50,064 bases of DNA from Pirellulales bacterium (lineage in GTDB: Bacteria; Planctomycetota; Planctomycetia; Pirellulales; JACPPG01). Made by a program: the position numbers and the translations under genes. The notes below the pieces were generated by a model. That model worked only from the letters and a program-made list of their open reading frames with translations, did no database searches and had not been told where the DNA came from. The stretch is taken from contig DASZWQ010000144.1 in the NCBI GenBank assembly GCA_035546535.1, positions 1 through 50,064 on the forward strand, given 5' to 3'. Below, piece by piece: positions 12,524 through 42,127 of this stretch (positions are counted from its first letter, which is position 1; each line of letters opens with the position of its first letter).

Positions 12524-13147
12524 CTATTTACGCTTGGAAACCCAGACTTGCACGCCCTTTTGCATGATCGTCCGCCGCGCGGCGTACTTCACCATGAACT
12601 GGCCTTCGGGATCGAACACGTGCGCGTCCGGATTATCGGCCGGGGCGCTGCGTGAAAACGTTCCAAGCGACATCTTTTGCATGAAACCCAACCATTGCCG
12701 ATCGGGTGCCAGGCCGAAGAACATCCGCTCCTCGGGCTTGAAGCCGCCGAACAGGAAGTTCTTCGACAGCGGAGCCATGTGCAGGGTCATGGCGATGAAG
12801 CAGACCAGGACCCAACCGACCCAACCCGCGAAGAAGAAACTGCCGATCTTGTCGACCATGGCGGGAAACCTGACGCGCACGCGCGAAATCGAATCGGTCA
12901 CGATGCGCAAAGACAGGTAAAAGCCCGCGAACAGCAGCCAGATCACGGGAAAGTCGAAGACGTACACGCCGTTGGGTTGTGACGACAGACATTTGCGCAC
13001 CAGCGGCTCCCAAAAATTGGTCGCCAACAGCGCCGCCGTGACCACGTTGAACAGCACGATGGCATTGCTCCACATCCCCTCATTGCCCAAGCTGGCAATG
13101 GTGATGATGACGATCAGGGCGAAGACGCCAGGCAGGATCAGTTCCAT
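12524..13147 (-). CDS. CvpA-like integral membrane protein
   Basis: A 207-residue protein with four hydrophobic segments: residues 1-18; 29-48 around NAIVLFNVVTAALLATNFW; 65-88 around FPVIWLLFAGFYLSLRIV; and 105-128 around FFFAGWVGWVLVCFIAMTL. The layout and the DSISR..FP..VDKIGSFFFAGWVG loop resemble the CvpA (colicin V production) family; that match is from memory and only moderate. The C-terminal 80 residues are soluble and end in VQVWVSKRK. It starts four bases after the stop of the degenerate GspE-like gene, so the two are almost certainly translated from one transcript, and it may be a membrane partner of that protein. Confidence 0.65.
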   Translation of the reverse strand: MELILPGVFALIVIITIASLGNEGMWSNAIVLFNVVTAALLATNFWEPLVRKCLSSQPNGVYVFDFPVIWLLFAGFYLSLRIVTDSISRVRVRFPAMVDKIGSFFFAGWVGWVLVCFIAMTLHMAPLSKNFLFGGFKPEERMFFGLAPDRQWLGFMQKMSLGTFSRSAPADNPDAHVFDPEGQFMVKYAARRTIMQKGVQVWVSKRK

Positions 13148-13151
13148 AAGG

Positions 13152-14912
13152 CTATTCCTTGAGCACGCGCATCAACTCTTGCAGCGACGTGATTCCCTTG
13201 GCCACCAGCACGATCCCCTCTTCTTGCAGCGTGCGCATGCCGGCGCGCCGCGCCGCCTGGCGCACCGCCGCCAATTGCGGGTTTGTCGTTAACGCCTGCC
13301 GGACGTTGTCGTCGACGATCAACACTTCGAAGATCCCGGTACGCCCGATGTAGCCGATACCTTGGCACTCGGTGCACACTTCTTCCGGCTGCTGGGGCGT
13401 ACGATACAAGGCCTCGATGCGTCCGGCAGGGATGCCCAATTGCTCGAGCAACTGAGCGGTCGGCGCAAAGGCCTCTTTACACTTCGGGCACAGCTTGCGA
13501 ATCAATCGCTGGTTGACCGCCGCGACGACGGCAGGCCCGAACTGGGCCGGCGGAACCTTCAGTCGCAGCACCTGCAGCAGCGAATCGGCCACTTCCTTGG
13601 CGCGCACGCTGGTTACCACCATGCGATTCTCGTTTTGGACCTGTTCGCATAGCATGGTGGCGCTTTCGGCGTCGACCATGTCGGGCACGACGTACACGTC
13701 GGGATGCTCGCGAATGATTTTCGGCAGGACGGCCGCCGGATTCTGCCCGGCCGCGGGGTCGAACAACGTGACGACGACGTTTTCGACGTCGAGTTCCTTG
13801 GTCGCCGCGGATTCGATGCCGACGAAGCCACGGACAAAGCGGTCCATCTCGCGGATCGTGGCGGGAAACAAAGTCGACAACCCGCCGGCCGGCGGCGTCG
13901 ACACGACGATCATTCCCTGCGGCTGCGAAAGAACTGCCTTGAGGTCCTCGATCAGCTTGGGACGCATGTCGAGGTCGACCAGCCGTTCGAGCTTTTGCTT
14001 GCGTCCCTGTAATTGCAGCAGAGCCCGCTCGCCCGTTTTGGTCCCTTGGCTGAGCACCTTGCAGGTGTATTTGACTTTCTCGAACTCGGCGCCGAACGTC
14101 CCCTCCTGGCGTTTGACGCGCTGCTTGGCGTCGAGCCCGGCGATCGTTTTCATCACGGCCAGCATGGCGTCGCCGGACTCGCGATCGCGGGCCTCGGCAT
14201 CGTGCCACACGCCGTCGATCTGGTAGCGCATGGCGACCGAGGCTTGCGTGAAGTCCATCAACACGCCGTCCACGCGCTTGCCGATGACCTCCGCGACCAG
14301 CGCCTGCGTCAACGGATAGCCGATCGTCTGCCGGGCCAAGAGCAGGTTGGCCGTGTTCGTGCGTTCGTCCTTGCCCTGCGGCTTCAGATCGACCGGAGGC
14401 CCTTTGCCGCGCCGGGTGCTTTCGGCGGCGATCTTGATGCCCACGACCTTCAGATTCTCGGACAGCCAAAAGCGAATATGGCCGGGCGTGAAAACCGTCT
14501 CGTCAATCGTGACCTTGGAATTCCGATGCGCGACGTAGGCGAAAAATGGCGCCGCCCAGGCCACCAGCATGAGCGGCATATCCAGCCAAAACCACGGCAG
14601 CGTCCACAAGAGAATGAGCGCCGCGACGAACGTGAAGAAAGCCACCAGGTTCCAGCGCTTGTAATCGAGCCGCAGCGTGGTCGCGTCGCGGCTCATCCAA
14701 TCCGTGGAACGAACCCAGAGCAAAAAGATCACCCAGCAGACCAGGATCTTGATCCAGCTGAGGTAAAAGCCCGGCCCGACCGGAAAGGTCGTGATGTTAT
14801 TGGCATCCAGCCCGGGATAGCTCGGAAACGTACCGAAATCCTGGGCCGACGCGCGTTGCGCATCGGCCAAGGACCAGAGCACCGCCAGAACCAGAATGAA
14901 CAAGCGGTGCAT
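13152..14912 (-). CDS. Membrane-anchored GspE/PilB-family protein with a degenerate ATPase site
   Basis: A 586-residue protein with a signal-like N-terminus and membrane segments near 50-68, 88-105 and 110-128, followed by a GspE/PulE-type domain. The fold is recognisable: RYQIDGVWHDAE (229-240), GERALLQL (294-301), AAVNQRLIRKLCPKCKE (464-480), and the zinc site C475, C478, C513, C516 followed by GYIGRTGIFEVL. The nucleotide site is gone. Walker A reads STPPAGGLST (338-347) without Lys; the EDPVE box is replaced by text around IESAATKEL (367-374); Walker B reads HPDVYVVPDMVD (403-414); and the His box reads NRMVVTSVRA with no His. It is probably a non-hydrolysing scaffold. Its start overlaps the stop of the PilT-like gene by one base. 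Confidence 0.85.
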   Translation of the reverse strand: MHRLFILVLAVLWSLADAQRASAQDFGTFPSYPGLDANNITTFPVGPGFYLSWIKILVCWVIFLLWVRSTDWMSRDATTLRLDYKRWNLVAFFTFVAALILLWTLPWFWLDMPLMLVAWAAPFFAYVAHRNSKVTIDETVFTPGHIRFWLSENLKVVGIKIAAESTRRGKGPPVDLKPQGKDERTNTANLLLARQTIGYPLTQALVAEVIGKRVDGVLMDFTQASVAMRYQIDGVWHDAEARDRESGDAMLAVMKTIAGLDAKQRVKRQEGTFGAEFEKVKYTCKVLSQGTKTGERALLQLQGRKQKLERLVDLDMRPKLIEDLKAVLSQPQGMIVVSTPPAGGLSTLFPATIREMDRFVRGFVGIESAATKELDVENVVVTLFDPAAGQNPAAVLPKIIREHPDVYVVPDMVDAESATMLCEQVQNENRMVVTSVRAKEVADSLLQVLRLKVPPAQFGPAVVAAVNQRLIRKLCPKCKEAFAPTAQLLEQLGIPAGRIEALYRTPQQPEEVCTECQGIGYIGRTGIFEVLIVDDNVRQALTTNPQLAAVRQAARRAGMRTLQEEGIVLVAKGITSLQELMRVLKE

Positions 14913-16060
14913 CAGAGAATTCCAGGCGCGCGGACGCTAATTCCTTTGAGCGCCATCCGCAGCGCGTCGACGTTCGGTGCCACTTCGAAGGCCGTGGCTC
15001 GATCGATGAGTTCTCTATCGACGAGCCCCTTGAGACTCATGGTGAAGTCCTGCATCCCTTCCTTCTCGCACATCACGATCGCGTCGGCGAGCTTTTCGTC
15101 ATGTCCTTCCAGCAGCAATTTACGAATCGTCGGGTTGAAGGTCATGATCTCGACCGTCGGCACGCGGCCGACGCCGGGCTTGATCGAGGGCAGCAGTTTC
15201 TGCGCGACGATCCCCTTCATATTCATGGCGATGGCGCTGCGGAGAGCGGCGTGCATGTTCTGGGGGAAGAGGTCGAGGATACGGCCGATCGTCGAGGGAG
15301 CGCTCGATGCGTGGATCGTACCGAACACCAGGTGCCCGGTCTCGGCGGCGTGAATGGCCGTGAGGAACGTCTCCTCGTCACGCATTTCGCCCACCAGCAT
15401 CACGTCCGGGTCTTCGCGGACGGCGTGCTTCATGGCGATACTGAAATCCTTGACGTCCAGTCCAATCTCGCGCTGGTTGATCAGGCACTTGTCTTCGGTG
15501 AAGACGAACTCGACCGGGTCTTCGAGCGTGAGAATGTGCTTGCGGTAGTTGCGATTGATCCAGTTGAGCATCGAGGCGATGGTCGTGCTTTTTCCCGAGC
15601 CCGTCACGCCGGCCAGCAGCACCATGCCTTGATGGAACTTGCACAACTCTTCCATGACCGGCGGAAGGTACAAGCCTTCGAAGTCGGGCACGAAGTTGTT
15701 GACGCGCCGAGCCACCATGCCCATGTGCCCAAGCTGCTGCAACATGTTGACGCGAAAGCGCCATAGTTTGCCGTCGACCTCGACGGTGTGGGCGAAGTCC
15801 GCGCCGCCGGTTTCATCGAAAATGCGGCGGTTGCGCTCGTTCAACAGGGGCATGCACAGGCGGACCATCTCCTCGTCGTTGATCGGACCGCGATTCATCG
15901 GACGCAGCGTGCCGTTGACGCGCACGATGGGGGCGCGATCGACCTTCAGGTGCAGGTCGCTTCCGCTCAGCTTGACGAGCGCGCGGAACAACTTGTCGAT
16001 CTCGTATTCCTCGCGGCGGCCGAGAAACCTGTCTGCATTGGGGGGTGCTGCGGTTGCCAT
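14912..16060 (-). CDS. PilT-type twitching/retraction ATPase homologue
   Basis: Hexameric secretion ATPase of the PilT/PilU group, 382 residues, with all catalytic elements. These are the N-terminal PAS-like part (LSGSDLHLKVDRAPIVRVNG, residues 31-50), Walker A GVTGSGKSTT (151-160), the Asp box EDPVEF (180-185), Walker B DPDVMLVGEMRD (217-228) and the His box TGHLVFGTIH (241-250). IVAQKLLPS near residue 300 corresponds to the usual AQ.L motif. Soluble, cytoplasmic. It is followed with a TGATG overlap by the degenerate membrane GspE homologue. No type IV pilin, PilC or PilQ gene is nearby, so a role other than classical twitching is possible. hisF lies 42 bases upstream. Confidence 0.92.
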   Translation of the reverse strand: MATAAPPNADRFLGRREEYEIDKLFRALVKLSGSDLHLKVDRAPIVRVNGTLRPMNRGPINDEEMVRLCMPLLNERNRRIFDETGGADFAHTVEVDGKLWRFRVNMLQQLGHMGMVARRVNNFVPDFEGLYLPPVMEELCKFHQGMVLLAGVTGSGKSTTIASMLNWINRNYRKHILTLEDPVEFVFTEDKCLINQREIGLDVKDFSIAMKHAVREDPDVMLVGEMRDEETFLTAIHAAETGHLVFGTIHASSAPSTIGRILDLFPQNMHAALRSAIAMNMKGIVAQKLLPSIKPGVGRVPTVEIMTFNPTIRKLLLEGHDEKLADAIVMCEKEGMQDFTMSLKGLVDRELIDRATAFEVAPNVDALRMALKGISVRAPGIL

Positions 16061-16102: not shown

Positions 16103-16882
16103 TTACGCGGAGAGCCGCACCGGGACGCCGCGCGCGTGCATCATGCGCTTTGTCTCACCAATACTATACTGGCGGAAGTGAAAGATGCTGGCGGCCAAAG
16201 CCGCGTCGGCCTTGCCGAACTGGATGGCGTCAGCCAGATGATCGGGATGGCCGGCCCCGCCGCTGGCGACGACCGGAATCCTCACCGCCTCGCTTACGGC
16301 GGCCGTGATCGGCAGATCGTAGCCGTTTTGCGTGCCGTCGGCGTCCATCGACGTCAGGACAATCTCGCCCGCCCCCAACTCTTCGACCTGCTGCGCCCAG
16401 GGGACGGCTTCCAGACCCGTGCTGACCCGACCCCCGTTGATGTGTACTTCGAATAGCTCGCGTCCGTCCCTCTGGACACGCTTGGGGTCGATGTTTACCA
16501 CGATGCACTGGCTGCCGAATCGGCGTGCCGCCTGGCGGACGAATTCCGGGTCGCGCGGGGCGGCCGAGTTGATCGACACCTTGTCGCAGCCCGCGTTGAG
16601 CAGTTGGCGAATGTCCTCGAGCGTGCGAATACCGCCCCCCACGCACAGTGGCATGAACACCACTTCCGCCGTGCGGCGCACCACGTCGAGCATGATGTCG
16701 CGCCCTTCGTGACTGGCTGTAATGTCCAAAAAGACCAGTTCGTCGGCTCCTTCGGCCTCGTAACGGGCGGCAACTTCCACCGGGTCGCCGGCGTCGCGCA
16801 GGTCGAGAAACCGGGTCCCTTTCACCACGCGACCGCGGTCGACATCAAGGCAGGGGATGACCCGCTTGGCGAGCATTTTCAC
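16103..16882 (-). CDS. hisF: Imidazole glycerol phosphate synthase, cyclase subunit
   Basis: TIM-barrel cyclase subunit of the HisFH complex in histidine biosynthesis; it joins ammonia from HisH to PRFAR to give imidazole glycerol phosphate and AICAR. The 259-residue protein has the expected [19 protein letters not shown] start with catalytic Asp near residue 12, [20 protein letters not shown] and [13 protein letters not shown] with the second catalytic Asp near residue 130, and [13 protein letters not shown]. The GTG at 16882 is taken because GGAGG lies eleven bases upstream; the ATG two codons later is an alternative. No other his gene is in the window. It leads the minus-strand run with the PilT-like and GspE-like genes. 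Confidence 0.95.
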
Positions 16883-38820: not shown

Positions 38821-40137
38821 GTGAAACCCCCTTTGACGGCAACGCGCGAGAAGACGCAAGAGAACGACTTCGAAGAACTGAAGCGCCGCATCCACGGCAA
38901 GCTCGTCGACAAGCTCGACCTGACGCGCGTCGGCGACCTGGCTGGCGATGTTTTGCGGCGCGAGATCCGGCTCGTCGTCGAGCATCTTTGCGACACCGAG
39001 GACACGCTCCTCAATCGCAGCGAGCGCGAGCGGCTGGTCGACGAGGTGCTCGACGAGACATTCGGGCTGGGCCCGCTCGAACTATTGCTCAAGGACCCGA
39101 CGATCAGCGATATCCTGATCAACGGCCCGAAGAACATCTATTGCGAGCGCAAAGGAAAGATGGAAAAGACCAACGTCACGTTTCGTGACAATGGTCACCT
39201 GATGCAGATCATCGATCGCATCGTGTCGAAGGTAGGACGGCGCGTCGACGAAGTCTGCCCGATGGTCGACGCCCGCTTGCCGGACGGTTCCCGCGTGAAC
39301 GCGATTATTCCTCCCTTGGCCCTGGATGGCGCGGCCGTCTCGATTCGCCGCTTCGGCGCCAATCCACTCAAACTCGAAGACTTGTTGAACTACAAGGCCT
39401 TTACGCCCGAGATGGTGATGCTGCTCGAGGGCGCGATCAAGGCCCGCTTGAACATCGTCATTTCGGGCGGTACGGGCTCGGGCAAGACGACGCTGTTGAA
39501 CACACTGTCGAGCTTCATTTCCAACGCGGACCGCATCGTCACGATCGAGGACGCGGCCGAACTGCAATTGCAGCAAGATCACGTGGTACGGCTGGAAACG
39601 CGGCCGCCGAACATCGAAGGCAAGGGAGCCATTACCGCTACCGACCTGGTAAAGAACGCCCTGCGTATGCGGCCCGAGCGCATCATCATCGGCGAATGCC
39701 GCGGCGCCGAGACGCTCGACATGTTGCAAGCGATGAATACCGGTCATGAAGGTTCGCTGACCACGATTCACGCTAATACGCCGCGCGACGCCGTGGCCCG
39801 TATCGAAACCATGATCACGATGGCCGGCTTCGAACTGCCATTGAAGGCCATGCGGCAACAAATCGCCAGCGCCGTGGACCTGATCATTCAGGCCAACCGC
39901 TTGCAGGGGGGGCCGCGCAAGATCACGCACATCACCGAAATCCTGGGAATGGAACAAGACACGATCGTGATGCAGGACATCTATCACTTCACGAAGGACG
40001 GCGTTGATGAAAATGGCCGGGCGCGCGGCCGCTTTCTGTCGACCGGCATTCGCCCCGCCTTCATGGACCGCCTCGAGGCTGCCGGCGTCCGTCTGCCGGC
40101 GAGCGCCTTCCGCCAGCGCGTGATGTTAGAGGATTAG
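38821..40137 (+). CDS. cpaF: Tad pilus assembly ATPase CpaF/TadA
   Basis: Cytoplasmic hexameric ATPase driving Tad pilus assembly, 438 residues. The N-terminal helical domain ends in [20 protein letters not shown] (81-100). The catalytic core has Walker [13 protein letters not shown] (Lys 222), the EDAAELQL Asp box, Walker [10 protein letters not shown], and the His box [16 protein letters not shown]. All key residues are intact, in contrast to the degenerate GspE homologue at 13152-14912. The start is GTG at 38821 with only a weak ribosome site. The gene follows cpaE after 265 bases with no apparent gene and leads the tadB-tadC part of the locus. Confidence 0.95.
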
Positions 40138-40156
40138 TCCCCGAGACCATACGACC

Positions 40157-41128
40157 ATGAACCCGACTCTGCTCATCTCGATCGCGGCCTTCGTCGGCGT
40201 GGCGGCGCTGGTCGGCGGCATCGCCATGTTCCTGCGCGAGAAAAGCGACAAGGGCATCGAGCAGCGGCTGGACGTGCTGACCGGGCTGAGCACGGCCAGC
40301 AACGTCAAGGAGAACCTGCTCAAAGGGAGCGTGCTCAGCGCGCCCTTGAATGAAAAGCCCGGCATCCTCGAAGGACTCGTCGCCCGTTATCACAAGCTGA
40401 GTCTGTTATTCGAGCAGGCCGATACGACGCTCACCATTTCGCGGTTTTTCGGCATCTCGGCCGGGCTGGCCGTGGTCGGTGCGTTGGCCTCGATGGTGGC
40501 GGGCTTTCCTGCGCCGATGACGCCCTTGGGGGCGCTGGCGATGGCAACGCTGCCGCTGTTGTGGCTGATGTTTCGCCGCGGCAAACGGATGAAGGCCTTT
40601 GCCGTGCAATTGCCCGACGCGCTGGAGCTAACGGCCCGCGCGCTGCGCGCCGGTCATAGCCTGGCGTCGGGCTTCAACCTGGTACGCGAAGAGATGGCGC
40701 CGCCGATTTCCAAGGAATTCGGCCGGGTCTTCGAAGAGCAGAACCTGGGCATTTCGATGGACGATTCGCTGTCGAACATGACCGAACGCGTCCCCAACCT
40801 GGACCTGAAGTTCTTCGCCACGGCCATCGTCCTGCAACGGCAGACGGGCGGTGACCTGGCCGAGATTCTCGACAAAATCGGCTACATCATTCGCGAGCGA
40901 TTCAAAATCTGGGGCCAGGTGCAGGCGCTGACGGGCGAAGGCCGTTTGTCGGGCGTGGTGCTGTTGGGGTTGCCGCCGGTCCTGTTTCTCGCCGTGTACC
41001 GGCTGAACCCCGATTACATCATGATGCTGTTCACCGACCCGATGGGCAAAAAGATGCTCGCCGGAGCGGTCATCCTGCAGGTGCTCGGCGCGCTGGTCAT
41101 TCGCAAAATCATCAATATCAAGGTGTAA
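40157..41128 (+). CDS. tadB: Tad pilus platform protein TadB
   Basis: Inner-membrane platform protein of the T2SS-F family, 323 residues. Hydrophobic segments lie at the N-terminus (about 1-25), 100-140 and at the C-terminus (250-323). The cytoplasmic T2SF domain runs between (LPDALELTARALRAGHSLASGFNLV, EFGRVFEEQNLG, RQTGGDLAEILDKIGYIIRER, about 152-250). It is 19 bases after cpaF and three bases before the GTG of tadC, so the three are one transcript. The family consensus ends (MLFTDPMGKKMLAGAVILQ) are well kept. Confidence 0.93.
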   Translation: MNPTLLISIAAFVGVAALVGGIAMFLREKSDKGIEQRLDVLTGLSTASNVKENLLKGSVLSAPLNEKPGILEGLVARYHKLSLLFEQADTTLTISRFFGISAGLAVVGALASMVAGFPAPMTPLGALAMATLPLLWLMFRRGKRMKAFAVQLPDALELTARALRAGHSLASGFNLVREEMAPPISKEFGRVFEEQNLGISMDDSLSNMTERVPNLDLKFFATAIVLQRQTGGDLAEILDKIGYIIRERFKIWGQVQALTGEGRLSGVVLLGLPPVLFLAVYRLNPDYIMMLFTDPMGKKMLAGAVILQVLGALVIRKIINIKV

Positions 41129-41131
41129 GTC

Positions 41132-42127
41132 GTGATCCTTGCCGACTTGATCGACTTCACGCAGATTCTGCCGCTGGCCGTATTCGGCTTGTTTGCCGTG
41201 GCCGCCTGGTGGCTGTTGGATCTGGTGGCGACGGGGCGGCCGCGCACTTTGCAGCGGCTGGACGAAATCAAGAATCCTGCGCTGCGACGCCGTGAAGCGG
41301 CGTCGTTGACCAAGAAGCAGGACGCGATGACCAAGGTGCTGGAAGCGGCTTCGCCTGCTCTGGCCGCGCCCTTGCAACCGAAAAGCGAGCTGGAAGTCAG
41401 CAAGCTGAAAATGAAGCTTTCCAACGGTGGCTTCCGCGGCGAGTCGGCGCCGACGATCTTCCTGGGTCTGAAATTCCTGGGTCTGATCATCGGCCTGTTC
41501 GGCAGCGGCACGACGATGATGATCCTCGGCAATTTCAGCCAGAAATCGACCATGACGTCGCTGTTCGTCGCCGGCGCCTTGTTTTACCTGCCCGACCTGG
41601 TGCTGAAGCTGATCGTCAGCAAACGCAAGGAAGCGATCTTCCTGGGCCTGCCTGATGCGCTCGACCTGATGGTGGTGTGCGTCGAGGCGGGGCTGGGTCT
41701 GGACCAGGCGATGCGCCGCGTTTCGGACGAGATGAAGCGGATCTACAAGGTGATCTCCGAAGAGTTCGCGCTGTCGAACTTTCAATTGCAAGTGGGTCGC
41801 TCGCGCACTGACGTGCTGCACGAGCTCGGGGTGCGCACCGGCGTCGATGATTTGCGCAGCCTTGCGTCGATCTTGATTCAAGCCGATAAATTCGGCTCCA
41901 GCATCGCGCAAGCCCTGCGCGTGCAAAGCGACTCGATGCGCACGCGGCGGCGGCAATTGGCCGAGGAAAAAGCCGCCAAGACCGCGGTAAAGCTGATTTT
42001 CCCGCTCGTGATCTTCATCTTCCCGGGCATTTTCGTCGTGCTCGTCGGGCCGGCCGCCATCACCATGGTCCGCGAAATGTTCCCGCTGATGGCCGGGGCC
42101 GGGGGCGGGCCCGGAGCCGGAAGCTGA
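41132..42127 (+). CDS. tadC: Tad pilus platform protein TadC
   Basis: Second T2SS-F platform protein, 331 residues, starting at a GTG three bases after tadB. The T2SF domain is FLGLPDALDLMVVCVEAGLGLDQAM, EFALSNFQLQVGRSR, ILIQADKFGSSIAQALRVQ (about 170-270), flanked by hydrophobic segments near 10-35, 110-150 and 285-310. It forms the membrane base on which CpaF acts together with TadB. The short spacing suggests translational coupling. Confidence 0.93.
   Translation: MILADLIDFTQILPLAVFGLFAVAAWWLLDLVATGRPRTLQRLDEIKNPALRRREAASLTKKQDAMTKVLEAASPALAAPLQPKSELEVSKLKMKLSNGGFRGESAPTIFLGLKFLGLIIGLFGSGTTMMILGNFSQKSTMTSLFVAGALFYLPDLVLKLIVSKRKEAIFLGLPDALDLMVVCVEAGLGLDQAMRRVSDEMKRIYKVISEEFALSNFQLQVGRSRTDVLHELGVRTGVDDLRSLASILIQADKFGSSIAQALRVQSDSMRTRRRQLAEEKAAKTAVKLIFPLVIFIFPGIFVVLVGPAAITMVREMFPLMAGAGGGPGAGS

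Follow-up and report, generated by a model that had tools for sequence, protein, structure and literature searches.

Gene content and conservation of the operon

The window, by which we mean the whole 50,064-nucleotide stretch of DNA that was analysed, carries on its minus strand genes for a PilT-like ATPase, a transmembrane GspE homologue (TM-GspE) and a CvpA-like membrane protein (Table 1). An earlier sequence-only reading had described these three genes as joined by a one-base overlap and a four-base gap, and the coordinates match this exactly; it had omitted two neighbours, a fourth operon gene after the CvpA-like gene and hisF upstream.

Table 1 Positions of the operon, its motifs and other genes in the window
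Feature	Position	Strand	Remarks
PilT-like ATPase, 382 aa	14912..16060	-	Walker A GVTGSGKST, Walker B VGEMRD, His box intact
TM-GspE pseudo-ATPase, 586 aa	13152..14912	-	
Three predicted membrane helices of TM-GspE (residues 53-79, 84-104, 108-133)	14514..14756	-	AF2 model, hydropathy
Former Walker A of TM-GspE, STPPAGGLST	13872..13901	-	Lys replaced by Leu345
Former Walker B region of TM-GspE, HPDVYVVPDMVD	13671..13706	-	Glu replaced by Asp411, preceding Gly by Pro, Arg by Val413
Former His box residue of TM-GspE	13602..13604	-	Arg437 in place of His
Tetracysteine zinc site of TM-GspE (C475, C478, C513, C516)	13365..13490	-	Retained
CvpA-like (Colicin_V family) membrane protein, 207 aa	12524..13147	-	
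Fourth operon gene, 248 aa	11650..12396	-	DUF4190-type membrane domain, then NTF2-like fold domain
hisF	16103..16882	-	Directly upstream of operon; syntenic neighbour, outside the machine
CpaF-like ATPase	38821-40137	+	Tad-type set
Two T2SSF-domain matches	40622-42046	+	Tad-type set

The same arrangement is common to dozens of genomes and loci, which rules out a chance gene neighbourhood. Both the three-gene order and the loss of Walker residues, for which a search of planctomycete genomes had been proposed, are conserved across Pirellulales, and the gene order is also kept in other planctomycete classes. The start-stop overlap is absent from 38 of 89 adjacent PilT-like/TM-GspE pairs. Upstream of the operon, hisF is present in 23/32 Pirellulales loci; in sister orders, 8/16 loci have a HisF relative, and this synteny speaks for an orthologous locus in the different orders. 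Tandem duplications, with two dead GspE copies per operon, were seen in L071 (7785-9104), L082 (7747-9054) and L083 (7728-9836); the second copy is soluble in L071 and L082, and that of L071 has a Lys in Walker A.

In most Pirellulales loci the CvpA-like gene is followed by the fourth gene, 17 of whose 27 members match DUF4190. Its model (pLDDT 92) has three membrane helices followed by an NTF2-like domain, and the best fold matches are NTF2-like proteins (E 0.005 to 0.05), with VirB8 at E 0.03. This predicted combination of membrane helices and NTF2-like domain is of the same fold class as VirB8/DotI (IcmL); however, the fold match is weak and generic, and the fourth gene has three predicted membrane helices, not one. 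We considered the match as a hint of a link to type IV secretion, but it is generic, and we assign the modelled protein to this fold class and no more, rather than filing it as a VirB8 member.

Targeted loss of the nucleotide site in TM-GspE

Residues 200-582 of TM-GspE align with positions 10-370 of the 370-position T2SSE profile (1.3e-43). The protein shares the N2-C1-CM(zinc)-C2 fold and the tetracysteine motif with GspE/PilB (TIGR02533, TIGR02538, T2SSE), and its model keeps the PilF/PilB fold, these two proteins being the top foldseek hits (TM-score to target up to 0.88). It differs from GspE/PilB in having three predicted membrane helices for N1, in the erasure of catalytic residues in Pirellulales, in scoring far below the equivalog cut-offs (174 vs 630 bits) and in forming a clade apart from the PilB1 and PilB2 of its own genome (SH-aLRT 99-100). 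Intact TM-GspE orthologues also score far under the NCBIfam equivalog cut-offs, and no NCBIfam equivalog covers TM-GspE.

The dead ATPase site described in the sequence-only reading was confirmed, with L345, D411 and R437 replacing the Walker A Lys, the Walker B Glu and the His-box His, as was the retention of the four-Cys zinc site, both Cys pairs being present. Deadness is universal within Pirellulales: not one of the 86 full-length members has the Lys, the Glu and the His of these motifs together. In 85/86 the Lys of Walker A is gone, with Leu in its place in 75, and all four zinc Cys are present in 85/86. A conserved GGLTT stands where active enzymes have GSGKT, an invariant Gly precedes the substituted residue, and the Asp-box Glu is kept in 80 percent of members, all of which would fit a non-standard site that still binds or slowly hydrolyses nucleotide. 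We consider such residual activity improbable, since substitutions affect the Lys, the Glu of Walker B, the His and, on the N2 side, the invariant Asp, His and Arg; 21 positions that do not vary among active enzymes have almost always changed, and in other lineages Arg, Val, Gln or Gly takes the place of the Lys.

The pattern of site loss was assessed at 67 sites whose invariance among 28 active PilB/GspE relatives reaches 95 percent or more; a site counted as kept if 90 percent or more of the 20 Pirellulales members sampled had it. Conserved C-terminal sites were kept in 16/17 cases vs 7/50 on the nucleotide side (Fisher 3e-9), with the boundary at residue 468 of the TM-GspE of the window picked after inspecting the site list. 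Site loss in TM-GspE is targeted to the nucleotide side, and the C-terminal half and zinc domain are kept under purifying selection. The zinc site is essential for function in Vibrio EpsE (PMC5061722), so its retention in a dead TM-GspE fits a structural role.

TM-GspE evolves faster than its PilT-like partner (within-genus dN/dS 0.09-0.25 and 0.03-0.07, respectively, by Nei-Gojobori with few species and dS near saturation), as would be expected of a decaying, functionless gene. The frameshifts that the earlier reading had named as a sign of decay are absent, however, all 86 full-length Pirellulales frames being open. These open frames and the low within-genus dN/dS rule against decay and, together with the retained zinc Cys and the order-wide conservation, make it highly improbable. 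The Pirellulales TM-GspE is very probably a functional pseudoenzyme.

A membrane module of TM domain and CvpA

In the AF2 model of TM-GspE, a further N-terminal helix (residues 2-16) precedes the three membrane helices, in line with the N-terminal signal and about three membrane segments originally described. The three-helix domain sits where GspE/PilB carry the soluble N1/MshEN domain. The third gene had been read as a CvpA-like membrane protein, and this holds at the level of the family: 23 of 24 members match Colicin_V (PF02674) at E up to 0.01 (best 2.7e-13), and the window protein alone gives a weak match (1.8e-4, below the gathering score). Like CvpA/Colicin_V, the window protein is a four-helix membrane protein; the difference lies in its strict co-occurrence with a transmembrane GspE and, in other planctomycete classes, in a long extra C-terminal region that brings the CvpA-like proteins (L187, L188, L191, L197, L198) to 350-660 aa in all.

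Among Pirellulales loci with enough downstream sequence, CvpA is adjacent to 42/44 TM forms vs 2/11 soluble forms of the dead GspE. The two TM loci without a called CvpA are L063 and L073, and the operons of the two soluble forms with an adjacent CvpA also hold a TM copy; the soluble dead forms come from two families only (f10, f16). A whole-genome profile search found no CvpA in eight soluble-only genomes and recovered it in 6/6 TM controls, and profile searches found none in 13 genomes without TM-GspE or in G163. Eleven genomes with TM-GspE have one CvpA each. In G002, CvpA was present with TM-GspE initially not known, and the DNA beside CvpA proved to encode a dead TM-GspE. CvpA is thus present in 18/18 genomes with TM-GspE and 0/22 without, a tally of related genomes in which independent events are far fewer than 40. 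Where TM-GspE lies far from the PilT-like gene, CvpA almost always adjoins TM-GspE. The TM domain and CvpA make up a single module, and their perfect co-occurrence provides a concrete candidate partner for the poorly understood CvpA family.

In some lineages the TM domain and CvpA have been lost and the soluble dead GspE still stands beside the PilT-like gene; the dead domain is therefore not merely an anchor. The initial proposal that the dead homologue anchors or regulates the live ATPase accordingly stands in part: the dead site, the membrane domain and the gene coupling agree with it, but anchoring alone is insufficient.

Intact TM-GspE in sister orders and possible repeated loss

TM-GspE genes with every motif intact occupy the same locus in sister orders (L097, L100, L101, L103, L106, L111, L115, L116, L118, L121, L122 and L127, the last with ENP as its Asp box). 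Homologues with intact Walker motifs had been named in the sequence-only reading as a finding against it, and they do occur. They rule out that the whole TM-GspE family is dead by nature, and deadness is thus derived and not a trait of the whole machine. Other copies are partly degenerate: L112 lacks the His only, L119 has lost part of its Asp box as well as the His, and L120 and L114 show more motif loss than these. In L200, which is not beside a PilT-like gene, the Lys is replaced by Arg and the His is missing. In other classes, 9 of 11 sampled TM-GspE proteins are dead and 2 intact. Partial and complete degeneration is seen again in further families and classes. Such a series of relatives with one and the same locus, active at one end, dead at the other and partly dead in between, could help to separate the parts of the ring needed for catalysis from those needed for docking.

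All lost forms fall in one clade of the TM-GspE tree, and a grouping of the Planctomycetia TM-GspE copies fails the AU test (p 0.002); long-branch attraction may account for both. The tree of the PilT-like protein, a slowly evolving linked gene, requires at least five changes, and the residue substituting the Walker A Lys differs between lineages. We tentatively propose, at somewhat less than even likelihood, a phylum-wide planctomycete membrane motor made up of an active PilT-like ATPase, a membrane-integral GspE ring and a CvpA-family partner, in which GspE became a pseudoenzyme repeatedly and independently in different lineages. If so, selection would on several occasions have made a fixed structural component out of one motor of a secretion pair.

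The PilT-like partner

The first gene encodes an intact PilT-type ATPase, as initially read: like PilT/PilU (TIGR01420), it passes the NCBIfam pilT_fam cut-off (380.2 vs 319.1 bits) and has all catalytic motifs. The Walker A Lys and the His-box His are each present in 125/125 relatives and the Walker B Glu in 124/125. The AIRNLIRE motif is needed for retraction by PilT. In the window protein, unlike PilT/PilU, it is missing and TIRKLLLEGHDEKL is in its position; the motif is absent throughout the 125 members, where a conserved TxRKLxLExxDEKL has replaced it; a further difference is the linkage to TM-GspE and CvpA rather than to PilC. PilT-like proteins are present in 286/297 Planctomycetia genomes, are ~42 percent identical to the canonical PilT of related genomes and separate clearly from it by score (>420 vs <285 bits in the genomes compared).

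Thirteen tested genomes of other families have a PilT-like gene and no detected TM-GspE, which indicates that this partner is not strictly needed, and twelve tested genomes of family f22 carry the two genes far apart. Genome G379 holds two PilT-like copies (L106/L107), one with TM-GspE and CvpA and the other alone. The lone copy is ~73 percent identical to that of the window and nearer to the Pirellulales type than its host family suggests, a possible transfer.

A dead ring as a candidate adaptor

Literature searches gave no description of TM-GspE or of the gene combination, which the sequence-only reading had likewise taken to be undescribed. Nor did the papers searched yield natural pseudo-ATPases in the PilB/GspE family, where to our knowledge none has been described. 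The Pirellulales TM-GspE belongs to the GspE/PilB superfamily, is membrane-integral and dead by nature, and is encoded in a conserved operon; our data suggest that here a dead motor has taken on a docking or regulatory role in an undescribed machine.

In the mechanism that we favor, the operon would encode an inner-membrane motor complex. TM-GspE would still form a ring and, together with CvpA, an inner-membrane platform; the erased ring, burning no ATP, could act as a docking adaptor for, or a brake on, the PilT-like hexamer, and the hexamer would do the work. The ancestral state would have been two active ATPases, still present in sister orders. Taken as a whole, we place this mechanism close to, and still below, an even chance. 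It is proposed by analogy with PilT-PilU of Vibrio/Acinetobacter, in which PilU drives retraction with a Walker-mutant PilT and not with PilT absent (PMC6821130), so that one ring can be catalytically dead yet required for the other. In that pair deadness was engineered by mutation and the two proteins are soluble, whereas in TM-GspE the dead state is natural, fixed and membrane-integral.

The adaptor proposal also draws on the gene order over dozens of loci, the loss of the TM-GspE site in all 86 Pirellulales members against invariant PilT-like motifs, the within-genus dN/dS of both genes, and the intact orthologues at the same locus in sister orders. To these it adds the selectively kept C-terminal sites and PilF/PilB fold, the 1:1 occurrence of TM domain and CvpA in the 18 vs 22 genomes, and the soluble dead GspE that stays beside the PilT-like gene after the loss of both. 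Against it stand the 13 genomes with the PilT-like gene alone, the unlinked genes of f22 and the 38/89 pairs without overlap.

Alternatively, TM-GspE and CvpA could be a membrane sensor or regulator of an ordinary pilus-like machine, with the PilT-like protein as its second PilT and adjacency reflecting co-regulation. Such a role would explain why the PilT-like gene is near-universal and survives without TM-GspE, why TM-GspE with CvpA can be unlinked from it, and why the genome has a canonical PilB/PilT/PilC/pilin-like cluster; it sits poorly with a soluble dead GspE that remains next to the PilT-like gene after TM and CvpA loss, with a gene order that holds throughout Pirellulales and is found in other classes too, and with the lack of the canonical AIRNLIRE in all 125 PilT-like members. 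We regard it as possible, if rather doubtful.

Pilus and secretion genes elsewhere

Under the adaptor proposal, the likeliest client would be the canonical pilus-like machine whose genes lie elsewhere in the genome, the alternative being a separate machine. PilC and pilins had been read as absent; none lie in the immediate neighbourhood, but one cluster on another contig of the same genome encodes PilB, PilT, PilB, PilC and three proteins whose N-termini are pilin-like. In relatives, 12-14 kb neighbourhoods, screened solely for ATPases, CvpA and the fourth gene, showed no pilus genes adjoining the operon except ordinary PilB-like genes a few kb away in L074 (793-2472) and L076 (176-1630), and hidden pilus genes next door were rejected as a candidate on these grounds. 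A plasmid search returned ordinary GspE only. The window itself holds Tad-type pilus genes at 38821-42046 (+), ~23 kb from the operon.

A canonical cluster is also seen at L148 (1434-12541), where PilB, PilT, PilB and PilC are followed by proteins with prepilin-like N-termini. Its make-up resembles Plim_0410 to Plim_0401, a type II secretion-like putative operon given as an example of conservation and essentiality in an essential-gene study of Planctopirus limnophila (PMC10632474). Judging by gene make-up, we think that Plim_0410 to Plim_0401 is the canonical cluster and not the TM-GspE operon.
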